Of a stretch of 42,068 nucleotides of DNA, positions 22,510 to 29,875 are shown one piece after another. The DNA lies in contig NZ_JACUUA010000011.1 of assembly GCF_014859565.1 (NCBI RefSeq), forward strand, positions 1-42,068, written 5' to 3'. Under the pieces are notes generated by a model. That model did no database searches. It saw nothing but the letters and a program-made list of their open reading frames with translations, and had not been told where the DNA came from. Position numbers and translations under genes: made by a program. Within the stretch, counting starts at the first letter, position 1. Every line of letters starts with the position of its first letter. The stretch is from Marinospirillum sp. GTDB taxonomy: Bacteria; Pseudomonadota; Gammaproteobacteria; Pseudomonadales; Halomonadaceae.

Positions 22510-23469
22510 ATGAAAAAGACACTACTCGCCTCTGCTGTTGCTGCAACCCTGGCTGCCACATCAGTGCAGGCTGCCACCATCGCTCAAACAGACACCGCCA
22601 AAGTTGATATGTATGGTCGCATCAACCTGATGCTGGAAAATAATGATGGCGATAATGCTATTAAAAATAACACTTCACGTATCGGTTTTCGCGCCAGCGA
22701 CAAGATCAACGAAGACCTGACTGCTTTTGCCCGTGCAGAATTCCGTTTTTCGGCTGATGAGCGCCAAGAGTCAAAGAACGGAGATCCGGTGTTTAATGAC
22801 CTGCGTAATACCTATGTCGGCTTGCAAGGTGGTTTTGGTAAGGTGACTGTGGGTAACTTTGACTCACTCTATTACCAGGCTGTTTCCAATGTTGCCGATT
22901 TGTTTGAAAACAAAGGTTTCCGCGCTTTGAACAAGGGCGACAGTAATGCCCGCGGTGACACCATTGCTTTTGAAACTGCCGACTTAGGTGGTATGCAGTT
23001 TGGTCTGTCTGCCAAACACGCACCTGAAACCGACGCCAGCGACGAAGCTTTTGGTCTGCAGGCTTATGGTCAGTTCACCATGGTTGATAACCTGACACTG
23101 GCCATTGCCTTTGATCAGAACATTGAAGAGCTGGATGGCGGTGCAGACAGCGATCCAATCATTGGTGCCAGTGCCACCTACAAAATGGATGCTTTAAAAG
23201 CCTCCCTGTTGATTGAAAGCTCTGGCGACTTTATGCACATTGCAGCCGGTGGCTCTTACACCTATGGCCCGGGTGATGTTTATGGCTTGGTGTCCATGAT
23301 GGATGACGGCAATGAGTCCGGCCTGGATCTGGCCATTGGTGCCAACTACAAACTCTCCCGCGCCTTCCGTACCTATGGTGAGTTTGCCATGGGTAACGAC
23401 AAAAACAATGAAGACTACACCCTTGGTGACAAGAGCGTGATGACAGTTGGTATGCGTTACGACTGGTAA
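22510..23469 (+). CDS. Gram-negative general porin
   Basis: The 319-aa precursor has a signal peptide ending SVQA-AT (about residue 21). A 16-stranded-porin pattern follows: KVDMYGRINLMLE as the first strand, SRIGFRASDKINEDLTAFARAEFRF, RNTYVGLQGGFGKVTVGNFDSLYY (the constriction-loop region), and C-terminal VMTVGMRYDW. This layout matches OmpU/OmpC-like trimeric diffusion porins. The mature protein is acidic, as in marine species. It has its own strong terminator. Confidence 0.9.
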   Translation: MKKTLLASAVAATLAATSVQAATIAQTDTAKVDMYGRINLMLENNDGDNAIKNNTSRIGFRASDKINEDLTAFARAEFRFSADERQESKNGDPVFNDLRNTYVGLQGGFGKVTVGNFDSLYYQAVSNVADLFENKGFRALNKGDSNARGDTIAFETADLGGMQFGLSAKHAPETDASDEAFGLQAYGQFTMVDNLTLAIAFDQNIEELDGGADSDPIIGASATYKMDALKASLLIESSGDFMHIAAGGSYTYGPGDVYGLVSMMDDGNESGLDLAIGANYKLSRAFRTYGEFAMGNDKNNEDYTLGDKSVMTVGMRYDW

Positions 23470-23648: not shown

Positions 23649-23988
23649 CATGACTTACACCATCACCTACTACAGTGACAAGGTTTAGAAGGACATACTC
23701 GACCTGCCGCCGGGGCTTCGAGGTCGGTACTTTGCCTTGACCGACCGAATGGAGTTGCACGGCCCCAATCTCGGTGAGCCGCACAGTAAGGCTTTCGGAA
23801 ATGGACTACTTGAACTCCGAATCAAGTCAGCAGAAGGTATTGCACGGGTTTTTTACTGCACCCTGATCAACAAACAAGTTGTGATTCTGCACAGCTTTAT
23901 TAAAAAAACAGACAAAACACCAGCCAAAGAGAAGCGAGTGGCTGAAGTTCGAATGAAAGAGGTAAAGAACCATGCTGACACATGCTGA
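23649..23988 (+). pseudogene. HigB-type toxin, broken by an amber codon and a frameshift
   Basis: The reading begins MTYTITYYSDKV and meets TAG at 23685-23687. It continues KDIL, then must shift frame by one base near 23697-23701 to resume as DLPPGLRGRYFALTDRME. The rest is a typical RelE/HigB-like toxin (GPNLGEPHSKAFGNGLLELRIK, GIARVFYC, VVILHSFIKKTDKTP). Two independent lesions in the first 17 codons mean no full toxin can be made without an improbable restart at 23737. It overlaps the higA start by 17 bp, the normal toxin-antitoxin layout. Confidence 0.8.
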
Positions 23989-24253
23989 ACTAAAAGCCAA
24001 AGCTCTGGCAGACCCAGAGGCAAAAGCCGAATATGAACGCGTCAATCGTGAAGAATATGCGCTGTTGGATGAAATGCTGGCAGCACGGCGCTCAGCCGGG
24101 TTGACTCAGGCACAGATCGCTGAACGGATGGGAACCAAGGCACCTGCAATAGCACGCCTGGAAAATGCTCTGGCCTCTGGTAAGCACTCACCCAGCCTGG
24201 ATACACTAAATACCGTAGACCCGTCATTCAGGGCGACATCGATGCGCGACTAA
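23972..24253 (+). pseudogene. HigA-type antitoxin, 3' end replaced by IS605 DNA
   Basis: The first 79 codons match the XRE-type antitoxin partner of HigB: LTHAELKAKALADPEAKAEYE, then a helix-turn-helix (GLTQAQIAERMGTKAPAIARLE) and SGKHSPSLDTL. At about 24208 homology stops. The family would continue with RRYAEALG or similar. Here the DNA becomes the internal part of a tnpA gene, which in this frame adds 14 unrelated residues before TAA. The DNA-binding domain is complete, so the product might still bind its operator, but the C-terminal part is lost. Confidence 0.75.
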
Positions 24254-24537
24254 AAGAAATTATACACGACGTAGTCAGTAATCATCGCGCTGAGATAATC
24301 GAGCTGGAAACCATGCCCGATCATGTGCATCTGCTCGTTGAAGTCGATCCACAGTACGGCATTCATAAACTGGTCAAAGCGATTAAAGGCCGATCTTCTC
24401 GGTTGCTGCGATCCGAGTTTCCCAGCTTAAAGTCTCGTTTGCCTACGCTGTGGACGAATTCTTATTTCTGTTGCACGGTGGGCGGCGCACCGCTCGAAGT
24501 GATCAAGCAATACATTGAAAAACAGAGAAACGTATAA
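24208..24537 (+). pseudogene. tnpA: tnpA (Y1/HUH transposase) lacking its N-terminus
   Basis: From KYRRPVIQGDID the frame matches IS200/IS605 TnpA: HUH motif in MPDHVHLLVEV, KGRSSRLLR, LPTLWTNSYF, and GGAPLEVIKQYIEKQ with the catalytic tyrosine. About 30 N-terminal residues that precede KYRRPV in intact proteins are missing, with no start codon ahead. An internal ATG at 24313 would give only 74 aa. The active-site HUH and Tyr survive, but the fold is incomplete. tnpB begins 2 bp after the stop. Confidence 0.85.
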
Positions 24538-24539
24538 AA

Positions 24540-25988
24540 GTGAAGCGAGCGAAGAATCCGACCTTTATCGTTGAGTTGCCTGTTTCCGTTTCGCAAGAGA
24601 CGGAAAGGCAGCTGACTGCACGATTATTGGCGGGTGCGCGTCTTTACAATGCTGCACTGGGTGAGGCGCTGCGTCGCTTGGATCTTATGCGTGAATCCAA
24701 AGACTGGAAGGCAGCCAGAAAACTGGAAGATGAGGAGCGCACCCATGCTTTCCGGTCAGTCGTCAAAAAATTCGAGTTCACCTCTGCATCGGTTTCTACA
24801 TTCGCTACGCGCTGCAAAAATGAAGCAGGATGGAAGTCTCGCCTCAGTGCCAATGAGACACAGCGCATTGCAGAAACCGCCTTCGCCGCCGCTGAACAGC
24901 ACAGTTATGGCAAGCGTGGTCGCCCTCGCTTCAAAAGCGCAAAGCGACCGCTCAAGTCTTTTTCAGGAAAAACGAACAAGGCAGGCATTCGCTACCGCCC
25001 CGAACTCGGCATCGTTGAGTGGGCTGGACTGATTCTACCGATCCAATACCCGCCTGCGGGCAAGGATCGATGGCTGGATGAAGCCCTGAAAGCGAAAACC
25101 AAGTTCTGCCGCCTGGTGTGGCGCAACGTCAAAGGAAAGCGGCGCTGGTACGTGCAGCTTGCCCAGGCAGGGCTTTCACCTGCCAAGGAAAAGAATTCGA
25201 CCTTGCCAAACAATGAAGTGGGTCTGGATGTTGGCCCTTCATCGGTTGCCGTCGTCTCAGAGACCGCTAGCGACCTGCTGGCCTTCTGCCCGACCATCGA
25301 ACAACCCTGGAAAGAGATCAGGACACTTCAGTGGGCGATGGATCGTTCGCGTCGCGCCACGAACCCGCATTGCTACAACGAAAACGGTACCTGGAAAAAA
25401 TGCGCGAAGGTTAAGGTGGTTTCCAAGAACTATCTCGCTCTGAAGCAGGCTGTGGCGGAACTGGAACGCAAGCTGGCAGCTGAGCGAAAGCGCTCTCAAG
25501 GTCAGCTGGTCAACGATGTGCTGCGCCTGGGTAATATCATCAAAACCAAAAAGCTGTCGTACAAGGCTTGGCAGAAACTCTACGGGAAAAGCATCAAGAC
25601 AAAGGCTCCTGCGACATTCATTGCTGGGTTGAAACGCAAGGCTGAAAGTGCCGGTGGACAACTCATCGAACTGAATACGCAGCGCCTGAAAATGTCGCAA
25701 TACGACCATGTGAGCGGTGAGTACACCAAAAAAACACTGAGCGAACGCTGGCACTTTCTTGGAGGCAAGACTTCCGAAAGCGCCCTGCTGGTTCAGCGTG
25801 ATTGCTACTCTGCTTTTCTGGCGCTTTGCGTTATTGAAAACGAACACCAGTCTAGCCAGCTGCATACGCGCTGGCCGGTTGTGAAACAGCGACTAGAGCA
25901 AGCGGGCTGGTGTCGTCCAATAGAAGTTGCGAATGGCGGGACAATTGTCTTGCCTACGGCAAAGCCGTCAGAGCGACTCGCTTGTTAA
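24540..25988 (+). CDS. tnpB: TnpB-like RNA-guided nuclease homologue with altered RuvC-II site
   Basis: TnpB proteins are omega-RNA-guided nucleases of IS605 elements. RuvC-I is intact (NEVGLDVGPSSVAVV, D230), and RuvC-III is intact (VQRDCYSAFLA, D421). In the subfamily I recognise, RuvC-II reads IKTEKLSYKAFQ; here it is IKTKKLSYKAWQ, with lysine 337 (AAA, 25548-25550) where the catalytic glutamate is expected. The zinc-ribbon cysteines are absent (SQYDHVSGEYTKKTLSERWHF); a cysteine-less version is also my recollection for some relatives. The start is GTG 24540. A +1-shifted frame (25910-26116) runs on into the right end (ends PPKPPGFIHGDV) and may be the original tail. Nuclease activity is doubtful. 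Confidence 0.85.
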   Translation: MKRAKNPTFIVELPVSVSQETERQLTARLLAGARLYNAALGEALRRLDLMRESKDWKAARKLEDEERTHAFRSVVKKFEFTSASVSTFATRCKNEAGWKSRLSANETQRIAETAFAAAEQHSYGKRGRPRFKSAKRPLKSFSGKTNKAGIRYRPELGIVEWAGLILPIQYPPAGKDRWLDEALKAKTKFCRLVWRNVKGKRRWYVQLAQAGLSPAKEKNSTLPNNEVGLDVGPSSVAVVSETASDLLAFCPTIEQPWKEIRTLQWAMDRSRRATNPHCYNENGTWKKCAKVKVVSKNYLALKQAVAELERKLAAERKRSQGQLVNDVLRLGNIIKTKKLSYKAWQKLYGKSIKTKAPATFIAGLKRKAESAGGQLIELNTQRLKMSQYDHVSGEYTKKTLSERWHFLGGKTSESALLVQRDCYSAFLALCVIENEHQSSQLHTRWPVVKQRLEQAGWCRPIEVANGGTIVLPTAKPSERLAC

Positions 25989-26128: not shown

Positions 26129-27670
26129 ATGACACTCAAAAAACTGCCGATTGGCATTCAAACTTTTAGCCAAATCCGCGAAGGCGATTATGTTTACATC
26201 GACAAAACTGCGCTGGCTTATGAGCTGCTGCAAAGCTACAAGTATGTCTTTCTAAGCCGCCCCAGGCGTTTTGGTAAATCCCTGTTTTTGGATACCCTGC
26301 GTAATATTTTTGAAGGCCAAAAGCACCTCTTTTCCGGCTTGGCGATTGAAGACCAGTGGGATTGGAGCGTTAGTTATCCGGTGATTCACATTTCCTTCGC
26401 TGAAGGTAAAATCAAATCCTGCGATGACCTTGCAGACAAGTTTGAAGAGATCTTTATCATCAATCAGGAGCGGCTGGGCATCACCTGCCAGTTTGAGGCC
26501 AGAGACCGACGCTGTTTTAGTGAAATGATTCGCAAAGCCCATGAAAAATACCAGCAGCAGGTCGTGGTGCTGGTGGATGAATACGACAAGCCGATTCTGG
26601 ACAACATCACCAATACCCCTCTAGCGCAAGAACTCCGCGATGGTCTGGTGAATTTTTACAGCGTGATCAAAGGTAGCGATGAATTTTTACGCTTTGCGTT
26701 TTTGACCGGCGTGAGCAAGTTCACTAAAACCTCCATTTTCAGCGGCTTGAACAACATCACTGATATTTCCTTACAGCGTAAATTCGGCGACATTTGCGGT
26801 TACAGCCAGCAGGATGTAGAAACCACCTTCGCACCCTATTTAACGGGTGTTGATATGAAAAAGGTGAAGGAGTGGTACAACGGCTATAATTTCCTTGGCA
26901 ATCAGATGTATAACCCCTTTGATATCTTAAAGTTTATTGCCAATGAACACACTTTTAAGAACTACTGGTTTGAAAGCGGCACGCCCACCTTTTTGATGGA
27001 GCTGATCAAAAAACAACACTACTTCCTGCCCAATCTTGCTGATTTGCGGGTTGATGAAAAACTGCTTAACAGCTTTGATATCGACAACCTGGATTTGGAA
27101 GTGATCCTTTATCAAAGCGGTTACCTGACAATAGATACCGTGCAAACCACGCTGTTTGACACCCTTGAATACACCCTGAAAATTCCTAACAAAGAAGTCA
27201 AGCAATCGCTGAACGATTACATCATCGACACCCTGATCAAAGACAAACGCTCGATTCCAACCAAAACCCACATCTACAAAAGCCTGCTGGAAGCGGATAT
27301 GCCAGGCTTCCAACAAGCCCTCACCAGTCTGTTTGCCAGCATTCCCTACAACCACTTCACCAAAAACGACATTCAAAACTATGAAGGCTTTTATGCCAGT
27401 GTTGTCTATGTGTACCTGCAAAGCCTGGGGCTGAATATCATCGGCGAAGATGTGACCAACACAGGCCGCATTGATCTCACTATCAAGATGGAACAGGCGA
27501 TTTATATTCTCGAATTTAAAGTCGATGGCAAGGGTAAGGCACTGCAACAGCTCAAAGACAAGGGCTATGCCGCCAAGTACCAGAGCGAAGGCAAGGATAT
27601 CTACCTCATCGGCATTCATTTTTCTACTCAGGAAAAAAACCTGTCTCACTTTGAATGGGCGCGGGGGTAA
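26129..27670 (+). CDS. AAA-ATPase-like / PD-(D/E)XK nuclease-fold protein
   Basis: The 513-aa protein has the two-part layout of the AAA-ATPase-like (PF09820) plus PDDEXK_9 (PF08011) families. The N-terminus has LPIGIQTFSQIREGDYVYIDKT and an atypical Walker A (RPRRFGKSLFLDTL, K50-S51). Walker B is VVVLVDEYDKPI (D150-E151). The C-terminal part shows D449 (GRIDLTI) and E462-x-K464 (ILEFKV), the PD-(D/E)XK core. The family is widespread in variable numbers and its role is unknown; defence or selfish-element roles have been suggested without proof. It is full length. It follows the IS right end with GGAGA as ribosome site. Confidence 0.82.
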   Translation: MTLKKLPIGIQTFSQIREGDYVYIDKTALAYELLQSYKYVFLSRPRRFGKSLFLDTLRNIFEGQKHLFSGLAIEDQWDWSVSYPVIHISFAEGKIKSCDDLADKFEEIFIINQERLGITCQFEARDRRCFSEMIRKAHEKYQQQVVVLVDEYDKPILDNITNTPLAQELRDGLVNFYSVIKGSDEFLRFAFLTGVSKFTKTSIFSGLNNITDISLQRKFGDICGYSQQDVETTFAPYLTGVDMKKVKEWYNGYNFLGNQMYNPFDILKFIANEHTFKNYWFESGTPTFLMELIKKQHYFLPNLADLRVDEKLLNSFDIDNLDLEVILYQSGYLTIDTVQTTLFDTLEYTLKIPNKEVKQSLNDYIIDTLIKDKRSIPTKTHIYKSLLEADMPGFQQALTSLFASIPYNHFTKNDIQNYEGFYASVVYVYLQSLGLNIIGEDVTNTGRIDLTIKMEQAIYILEFKVDGKGKALQQLKDKGYAAKYQSEGKDIYLIGIHFSTQEKNLSHFEWARG

Positions 27671-27776
27671 CTTCATCCACTGCAGGTTATGAACAGAAAA
27701 CTTCACCAGGTCGTTAAACCCATCAAACAGCAACTGGCGAGCAGTCAAATTACAACCAAGGAGCCAAGCTAACTCC

Positions 27777-28664
27777 ATGAGCCGACTTGTACTTTTGATC
27801 CTCTTGGTTTCATTATCAATCACCACGACCCTGGCGGTCGATAGGCAGCTGCTGGATCTGCATCGCTTTGCTTACATCGGAGATTTGGAACGGTTAGAAA
27901 CCGTGCTTGATGCGGGTGCAGACCTCAATGCAAAAGATCAGCATGGCATGAACGCGCTGCTCTGGGCGGCTTATAATAATCAAACCCAAGCGGCTCAGCG
28001 ATTACTGGCTGCCGGTGCTGAACCCAATGCCACCACGCCTAGTGGGTTTACGGCACTGACCTATGCTGTACGCTACGGGAATACCAGTCTTGTTGAGCAG
28101 CTGTTGGCCGCAGGCGCAGACTTATTAACTGATAGCCGTGGTAATGACGCGCTTTATGAAGCCGTGCGGCAGGGCAATCTGCCAATTACTCGTTTATTGC
28201 TGCCCTTGCAGCCCAACCTGAATCACACCTACCAAAACCCTGATACTGATCGTTCACTCAGTACCAACCTGCTCCTGATTGCTGATGTGTTGTTCGTTTC
28301 TGCGTATAATGCCGCTTTTTATGCTTCTCACTCTGGTTTGTTCATGTCCCGATTTCTGAGCCTGATCCTGTTAGTTTTATTATTGATCACCCAGTATCGC
28401 CTTTGGTGGGGTGAGAACGGGTTGATTGAATTCCGGCAGGCTCGCGCCTTGGTTAGCACCATGGAACAGGAAAACCAACAGCTAAAAAAACGCAATCAGC
28501 GCCTGGATGCCGAAGTGCAGGACTTAAAAAGCGGGTTAGCTGCCGTGGATGAACGCGCACGTTTTGATCTGGGCATGATTGGCAGTGATGAAACTTTTTT
28601 TTGGCTGATCGGCCAACCACCCGCTGAGTTCTCACTTCCCGAATCTGGAAACACTTCACCATGA
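27777..28664 (+). CDS. Ankyrin-repeat domain fused in frame to FtsB
   Basis: The 295-codon frame has an N-terminal hydrophobic segment (1-20, ending near TTTLA), four ankyrin repeats (about 27-150: DLERLETVLDAGADLNAKD, NALLWAAYNN, TALTYAVRYGN, DALYEAVRQGN), and a hydrophobic linker (161-189). From M190 it is a complete FtsB. No stop separates the parts. The first 16 codons (MSR...LILLV.L.IT) match the FtsB part's own first 16 codons at 11 residues, suggesting duplication of the ftsB 5' end. AAGGAG lies 13 nt before the ATG, a long spacing. Either a real fusion is made, or ftsB is also started internally. eno, usually upstream of ftsB, is absent. Confidence 0.7.
   Translation: MSRLVLLILLVSLSITTTLAVDRQLLDLHRFAYIGDLERLETVLDAGADLNAKDQHGMNALLWAAYNNQTQAAQRLLAAGAEPNATTPSGFTALTYAVRYGNTSLVEQLLAAGADLLTDSRGNDALYEAVRQGNLPITRLLLPLQPNLNHTYQNPDTDRSLSTNLLLIADVLFVSAYNAAFYASHSGLFMSRFLSLILLVLLLITQYRLWWGENGLIEFRQARALVSTMEQENQQLKKRNQRLDAEVQDLKSGLAAVDERARFDLGMIGSDETFFWLIGQPPAEFSLPESGNTSP
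28282..28310 (+). promoter_or_regulatory. Candidate promoter for ftsB inside the fused ORF
   Basis: A perfect -10 box (TATAAT, 28305-28310) lies 33 bp before the internal FtsB ATG. At 17 bp upstream is CTGATG (28282-28287), three of six matches to the -35 box. The sequence sits in the linker between the ankyrin and FtsB parts, where coding constraint would be low. Confidence 0.5.
28344..28664 (+). CDS. ftsB: Cell division protein FtsB (internal start within the ankyrin fusion)
   Basis: FtsB forms the FtsQLB complex that activates septal peptidoglycan synthesis. From ATG 28344 the 106-aa product matches normal FtsB in length and order: MSRFLSLILLVLLLIT membrane helix, QYRLWWGENG, a coiled coil (about 30-70, QLKKRNQRLDAEVQDLKSG), then ERARFDLGMIGSDETFFWLI. 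It is the only FtsB in the window, and its ATGA overlap with ispD is the standard arrangement. No strong Shine-Dalgarno precedes this ATG, but a consensus -10 box does. This is the same reading frame as the ankyrin fusion and is entered separately because it is probably the essential product. Confidence 0.75.
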   Translation: MSRFLSLILLVLLLITQYRLWWGENGLIEFRQARALVSTMEQENQQLKKRNQRLDAEVQDLKSGLAAVDERARFDLGMIGSDETFFWLIGQPPAEFSLPESGNTSP

Positions 28665-29383
28665 GCTTTACGCCTCGCCTCTGGTGCTTGCTGCCTGCTG
28701 CCGGTATAGGGCAGCGCATGGGTGCTGACTATCCCAAACAATACCTGCCGCTGGCCGGTAAAACCCTGCTGGAAGTCACCCTCGGCAAGCTGCATCAGGC
28801 TTTTCCTGCTGCCACCCTGATTTTACCTCTGCACCCAGACGATCACTGGTGGCCGGATGTTCATCAGCGCATCCTGCAAAATCATCCGAATTTACAACTG
28901 ATAACGACCCTTGGTGGTGCTGAGCGGGCTGATTCAGTGCTCTGCGGACTAAAAATACTGGAGCAACAGGCCGCAGCAGCAGACTGGGTGCTGGTGCATG
29001 ACATGGCTCGCCCCTGCGTGACGCAGAGCGACCTGTTCAAACTGTGGGACACGCTGCAAAATCATGCAGTGGGCGGCCTGCTGGCGGCACCCGTCGCTGA
29101 CACCATGAAGCGCAGCAATCCACAAGGGCAGGTCGAAACCACCGTGGAACGCAGCCAGCTCTGGCACGCGCTGACGCCTCAACTGTTTCGTTACGGCCTG
29201 CTGAAAAATGCCCTGCAAACGGCGCTGGATCAGGGGCTTAACATCACCGATGAAGCCTCGGCACTGGAGGCTGCCGGTTATTCTCCACAATTGGTCAGCG
29301 GGCGGCGCGACAATATTAAAGTCACTCATCCAGAAGACTTGCCGCTGGCAGAACTTCTGCTGAAAAGCCATTCACTCAGCTAA
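28661..29383 (+). CDS. ispD: 2-C-methyl-D-erythritol 4-phosphate cytidylyltransferase IspD
   Basis: IspD makes CDP-methylerythritol in the MEP isoprenoid pathway. CLLPAAGIGQRMGADYPKQY is the nucleotide-binding signature with the conserved Arg and Lys. VLVHDMARPCV, AAPVADTMKR and ITDEASALEAAG are further family motifs. At 240 aa it is full length. The ATG overlaps the ftsB stop (ATGA). ispF follows 12 bp later. Confidence 0.95.
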   Translation: MSFTPRLWCLLPAAGIGQRMGADYPKQYLPLAGKTLLEVTLGKLHQAFPAATLILPLHPDDHWWPDVHQRILQNHPNLQLITTLGGAERADSVLCGLKILEQQAAAADWVLVHDMARPCVTQSDLFKLWDTLQNHAVGGLLAAPVADTMKRSNPQGQVETTVERSQLWHALTPQLFRYGLLKNALQTALDQGLNITDEASALEAAGYSPQLVSGRRDNIKVTHPEDLPLAELLLKSHSLS

Positions 29384-29395
29384 AAGGCGTTGATC

Positions 29396-29875
29396 ATGCG
29401 TATCGGACAAGGTTTTGATGTTCATAAATTCGGCCCCGGTGACCACATCACTCTGGGTGGTGTTTGTATTCCTTTTCACCAGGGGTTGGTTGCTCATTCC
29501 GATGGTGATGTACTCATTCATGCCCTGTGTGATGCGCTGCTGGGTGCTTGTGGACTAGGGGATATCGGGCATCACTTCCCCGATACCGACCCGGCCTTTG
29601 CCGGTGTGGACAGTCGTATTCTACTGCGCCGTGTGATGGAAGCCATTCAGCAACAGGGTTATCAACTGGTGAATGCTGATATGACCATCATTGCCCAGAC
29701 ACCCAAAATGGCACCTCATCTACCGGCGATGAAAAACAAGCTGGCAACCGATCTCAACACCACCTGGGATCGTATCAATATCAAAGCCACCACCACAGAA
29801 AAGCTCGGTTTTACCGGACGCGGTGAAGGTATTGCCGCTCAGGCCGTGGTATTACTGGAATCCCCATGCAACTAA
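29396..29875 (+). CDS. ispF: 2-C-methyl-D-erythritol 2,4-cyclodiphosphate synthase IspF
   Basis: IspF cyclises CDP-ME 2-phosphate, the step after IspE in the MEP pathway. [12 protein letters not shown] carries metal ligands D8 and H10. [19 protein letters not shown] gives a third histidine, [12 protein letters not shown] is characteristic, and [19 protein letters not shown] ends the fold. The ATG at 29396 has AAAAGG at a suitable distance; a TTG two codons earlier is unlikely. At 159 aa it is normal. Its 3' end overlaps truD by 10 bp. Confidence 0.95.

Follow-up and report, generated by a model that had tools for sequence, protein, structure and literature searches.

An ankyrin-repeat reading frame runs without a stop codon into ftsB in one Marinospirillum-like bacterium, probably as an unusual nested gene arrangement

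INTRODUCTION

FtsB binds FtsL and FtsQ and is essential for cell division. Proteins of this family (NCBIfam NF002058; Pfam PF04977) are expected to have a short cytoplasmic N-terminus, one transmembrane (TM) helix followed by a coiled coil, and a total length of ~100 aa. Bacterial ankyrin-repeat proteins with an export-like N-terminus (PF12796) combine a hydrophobic N-terminus with a short ankyrin array. In the excerpts of the open-access literature considered here, the promoter region of ftsB in E. coli is mentioned (PMC10076392), FtsB is listed as absent from the organism under study (PMC4378268), and an Ank-FtsB fusion is not reported.

Here, we analyzed a 42,068-nucleotide stretch of DNA from Marinospirillum sp. 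(the window), in which no stop codon separates an ankyrin-repeat gene from ftsB, so that both read as one long protein. Residues 190 to 295 of this protein resemble FtsB in that they score above the curated cut-off, begin at the start of the homologues, contain the TM helix and coiled coil, and are followed by ispD and ispF; unlike FtsB, they are preceded in frame by 189 codons that reach into an ankyrin domain. This upstream part shares the hydrophobic N-terminus and short ankyrin array of the export-like ankyrin proteins but, unlike them, has no stop before the next gene, and the best-scoring protein match to the full-length frame shows 41% identity across 39% of the query. The slot of the ankyrin gene directly upstream of ftsB is the one that small genes following eno occupy in Marinospirillum; those small genes, however, end before ftsB, and eno is not upstream in the window.

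RESULTS

Domain content of the open frame

From a signal-peptide-like N-terminus, the frame continues through four ankyrin repeats and a linker into a complete FtsB (Table 1). Pfam Ank_2 (PF12796) matches with an E value of 6.8e-33 (113.5 bits versus a cut-off of 27.3), Pfam DivIC (the FtsB family, PF04977) matches residues 201 to 277 (E value 5e-21), and the NCBIfam model for "cell division protein FtsB" (NF002058) matches from residue 192 with 106.4 bits versus a cut-off of 101. The codon score of the ankyrin part is coding-like at 0.24 per codon. An AlphaFold model of the 295-aa protein, based on a 38-sequence alignment (mean pLDDT 83.4; pTM 0.54), has four helix pairs that correspond to the four ankyrin repeats, a poorly predicted stretch at residues ~150 to 159 (pLDDT below 50 at 152 to 155), a linker helix of low confidence at 160 to 185 (pLDDT ~62 to 72), and the FtsB TM helix at 189 to 212 followed by a coiled coil at 215 to 264. 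The single TM helix and coiled coil expected of FtsB are present in the model as well as in the hydropathy profile. The best Foldseek matches are designed ankyrin proteins; the solved structures matched by the sequence of the FtsB part are FtsB chains (8hhg and 8bh1).

Table 1. Coordinates of features at the ankyrin-ftsB locus, in window positions
Feature	Position	Strand	Basis or remark
Upstream neighbor, AAA-ATPase_like + PDDEXK_9 protein	26129..27670	+	Pfam
AAGGAG, likely Shine-Dalgarno sequence of the ankyrin start	27758..27763	+	13 nt from ATG, longer than usual
Single open frame, 295 aa	27777..28664	+	ATG at 27777, stop ending at 28664
Hydrophobic N-terminus, signal-peptide-like, residues 1-20	27777..27836	+	Kyte-Doolittle maximum 2.25; putative signal peptide
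Four ankyrin repeats, ~residues 24-144	27846..28208	+	Pfam, model helices, Foldseek
Linker, residues 150-189	28224..28343	+	3' part is the counterpart of the relatives' ftsB promoter/leader
TATAAT, -10-like box	28305..28310	+	33 nt before the FtsB ATG, inside linker codons; family conservation
ftsB proper, 106 aa, from in-frame ATG (residue 190), including stop	28344..28664	+	NCBIfam and homologue starts
ispD	28661..29383	+	Pfam IspD; overlaps the ftsB stop
ispF (YgbB family)	29390..29875	+	Pfam

Pfam, NCBIfam, and AlphaFold together confirm the 295-codon frame with hydrophobic N-terminus, ankyrin repeats, linker, and complete FtsB that had been described in a sequence-only reading of this DNA. 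The ftsB-ispD-ispF order noted there is likewise preserved, with Pfam IspD and then YgbB/IspF downstream of ftsB. In one Marinospirillum relative (L091:1824-3029), ispD and ispF appear by eye to be fused in one 401-aa frame.

By hydropathy, the N-terminus of the ankyrin part is signal-peptide-like, and the ankyrin part may be periplasmic. If the ankyrin part is exported, then FtsB would have its normal topology only if the segment of residues 160 to 185 spans the membrane.

The FtsB start codon and comparison with other genomes

The in-frame ATG at 28344 coincides exactly with the start of the closest FtsB proteins, P0128 (87% identical) and P0129 (84% identical), which are listed as 106 aa with the same Met (protein records). 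A search for FtsB restricted to proteins of 58 to 185 aa gave 62 matches, and among the 30 of these that were aligned, 27 start at or within ~3 residues of M190, while the remaining 3 (P0157, P0161, and P0170) start slightly upstream. A start at 28344 fits the short cytoplasmic N-terminus and total length of FtsB, whereas a start at 27777 does not. The Shine-Dalgarno match at the ftsB ATG comprises at most three bases, as it does in six of the eight Marinospirillum loci described below; the longer match belongs to the ankyrin start, which argues against a nested ftsB.

Judged by match names, Marinospirillum is the nearest genus, and we compared eight of its genomes, in which FtsB is 61 to 77% identical. 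In all eight, the FtsB frame measures 109 to 142 aa from stop to stop, a stop is located 1 to 36 codons upstream of the ftsB start, eno lies upstream of ftsB (by Pfam in one locus and by eye in the others), and no ankyrin gene precedes ftsB. Among the ORFs of at least 140 aa in the window, eno was absent by eye. What lies between eno and ftsB differs among the Marinospirillum species: six loci have a small gene, either of a first type of 153 to 188 aa (L085, L090, and L092) or of a second type of 141 to 145 aa with a lipoprotein-like start (L087 to L089), both types being assigned by eye, and L086 and L091 have none. Two of the encoded proteins were tested and matched no Pfam family.

The sequence-only reading had proposed a search for the same fusion in related genomes. 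None of the eight Marinospirillum genomes has an Ank-FtsB fusion, and no second Ank-FtsB protein was found in the protein searches. The refuting case named in that reading, a relative with a stop between separate ankyrin and ftsB ORFs, did not occur among the eight either, as their loci have no ankyrin gene at this position. FtsB was sought in proteins of 162 to 516 aa (161 candidates scored), which gave four matches, none with ankyrin repeats; two have an unrelated-looking N-terminal extension, and two have IspD. In the search with the full-length protein (7998 candidates scored), the FtsB Pfam domain was seen by eye in none of the best 120 of 1012 matches, and the best-scoring match is the partial one mentioned above. 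No protein identical to that of the window was returned by the full-length search, the long-FtsB search, or the search of 58- to 185-aa proteins. Stop-to-stop ftsB frames of >200 aa occur in at least 6 rows among 151 genomes, so long upstream frames are not rare. The three of these frames that were read (L103 to L105) contain no ankyrin repeats by eye, two rows of the survey of sequences before ftsB have 227 and 240 open codons, and with a stricter pattern, an FtsB frame of 200 to 420 aa was absent among L001 to L080.

A sequence or assembly error, by which the stop of the ankyrin gene would lie in another frame or have been lost and the fusion would be confined to this contig, is consistent with the occurrence in one sequence only, with the lack of an identical protein in the searches, and with the stops in both other frames soon after residue 150 (28276 and 28241). 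However, the longest single-base run in 28209 to 28343 is five T, and both domains are clean and in frame. Moreover, the chance that 40 codons of locally composed DNA are free of stops is 0.21, or 0.07 if the one-in-three frame is included. Because such a run arose in 21% of trials, an accidental in-frame run is plausible and an error is not needed as an explanation. We consider an error highly unlikely.

The linker and the ftsB promoter region

Within 60 nt upstream of ftsB, a T/CATAAT motif is present in five of the eight Marinospirillum loci and in 20 of the 21 parsed family loci, which are the best-matching loci of 151 genomes (1 of 22 was not parsed). With genus and family taken together, the box is present in 25 of 29 parsed loci, and 23 of the 25 boxes are located 28 to 38 nt from the start. 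No exact match was found within 60 nt in L086, L087, L091, and L093; in L091, only 17 nt separate eno and ftsB. In a more distant set of ispD loci, a loose pattern detected T/CATAAT before ftsB in 0 of 56 parsed loci (24 of 80 were not parsed). At the window's own frequency, the expected count of TATAAT in 60 nt is 0.006. Based on these comparisons, the putative -10 box upstream of ftsB is a family-specific feature; its absence from the ispD set and from the four exceptions counts against the nested reading. A generic sigma-70 scan reported no plus-strand promoter at the linker, and a -35 element was not established; it is therefore the conservation of the -10-like box that carries the promoter assignment.

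The last 60 bases before the ftsB ATG are T-rich (29 of 60), and a T-rich leader tends toward hydrophobic residues when translated. Read in frame, the leaders of the Marinospirillum relatives have a positive mean hydropathy in seven of eight cases, while six of the eight contain an in-frame stop within those 20 leader codons; the linker of the window is no more hydrophobic than these leaders. Because the relatives' leaders are also hydrophobic, the hydrophobicity of the linker, which reaches 1.70 over 19 residues, loses most of its weight as a sign of a selected membrane pass. With a codon score of 0.037 per codon, the linker falls between in-frame gene chunks (0.37) and out-of-frame chunks (-0.34), and we did not count this low score as proof since the signal-like N-terminus scores even lower. 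Residues 152 to 171 score like coding DNA (0.28), which, together with the intermediate score, counts against the nested reading. Most likely, the end of the linker is the translated form of the ftsB promoter and leader, and the linker segment could still insert in the membrane despite this origin.

These observations bear on the possibility of a functional fusion, in which the 295-aa protein would be the main FtsB of the organism: the N-terminus would export the ankyrin domain, the helix of residues 160 to 185 would return, and the FtsB helix would cross again, thereby keeping the FtsB topology and tethering the ankyrin domain in the periplasm at the divisome. The frame is indeed open throughout, the ankyrin repeats are intact, and the hydropathy maximum of the linker is accompanied by a modeled helix of the right length. 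However, this helix is modeled with low confidence and contains an Asp, the linker DNA carries the -10-like box and is matched in hydrophobicity by the relatives' leaders, the FtsB start is conserved, and Ank-FtsB is absent from the eight Marinospirillum genomes. We regard a functional fusion in this sense as quite unlikely. From the fusion claimed in the sequence-only reading, the in-frame reading frame stands as real, whereas the FtsB start and the -10-like box are intact inside it and the 3' part of its linker corresponds to the leader of the relatives and shares the hydrophobicity of those leaders. FtsB is therefore better accounted for by the internal start offered there as the alternative (a product of ~12 kDa).

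Genomic neighborhood of the ankyrin gene

In the eight Marinospirillum genomes, the ankyrin part has no match in six and weak matches at other locations in two (G030 and G056; E value 2e-5 or worse). An order-wide search with the ankyrin part gave matches at 1e-12 in 24 of 390 genomes drawn from a larger group, with 30 to 46% identity, and weak ankyrin matches were found in one of four Oceanospirillum genomes. Among the short ankyrin relatives from the order-wide search and the family loci, none looked like an ortholog. Viral contigs contained no relative of the 295-codon ORF, and plasmids (68 records) and phages (9 records) gave ankyrin matches only, below 60% identity. In G026, a more distant member of the family, three ankyrin genes with lipoprotein-like starts (by eye) stand in tandem (L115, L118, and L120).

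The upstream AAA-ATPase_like + PDDEXK_9 neighbor matched none of the eight Marinospirillum genomes at 1e-20 in a search run without a positive-control genome. An IS200/IS605-type element occupies positions 24225 to 25988. It contains what looks by eye like a piece of a transposase, together with a 482-aa TnpB-like protein, which scores 63.8 bits versus a cut-off of 100 bits with the guided_TnpB model and matches no Pfam family. By eye, positions 23650 to 24220 hold the frames of a toxin-antitoxin-like pair, in which the RelE/HigB-like toxin meets an in-frame stop early on and the HigA-like antitoxin is truncated by the adjoining insertion element. The porin gene at 22510 to 23469 is present in seven of the eight Marinospirillum genomes and is never near ftsB (in G006, it lies ~40 kb from ftsB on the same contig), which suggests that this stretch of the window has been rearranged. 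Around the ankyrin-ftsB junction, we found no repeats marking an insertion.

The ankyrin part could be newly captured or decaying and unexpressed, with standalone FtsB as the sole product. The broken toxin-antitoxin-like pair and the IS200/IS605-type element nearby fit this possibility, as does the low identity and coverage of the best-scoring protein match, but the coding-like codon usage, the intact repeats, and the AAGGAG upstream of the ankyrin start argue against it. We regard this variant of the explanation preferred below as unlikely.

DISCUSSION

The open frame with its domains, the conserved FtsB start, the separate ftsB frames of the relatives, and the conserved -10-like box are direct observations. 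We infer that the box at 28305 to 28310 functions as a promoter, that 28344 is where translation begins, and that the long product is minor. The explanation that we consider likely is that an ankyrin-repeat protein, apparently exported, is encoded by a lineage-specific gene immediately upstream of ftsB and that the frame of this gene runs stop-free through the ftsB promoter/leader into ftsB. The native promoter and native ATG would supply most of the FtsB, while Ank-FtsB of ~32 kDa would be an additional, probably incidental and minor product. Since no stop intervenes, any product begun at the ankyrin ATG must have FtsB at its end. The arrangement is probably an unusual case of nested genes; that it is known from one sequence counts against this reading.

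If ftsB is indeed nested in this way, then the case illustrates how the frame of an upstream gene can come to extend over the promoter and start of an essential gene, and how a normal FtsB would then be concealed by annotation within a long "fusion." We give little credence to the 295-aa protein being both made and working beside a normal short FtsB, in which case it would place a periplasmic binding arm on FtsQ-FtsL-FtsB, with a new membrane pass derived from translated promoter DNA. A working fusion would provide FtsB with a protein-binding domain of its own and with a membrane segment that arose from promoter DNA.
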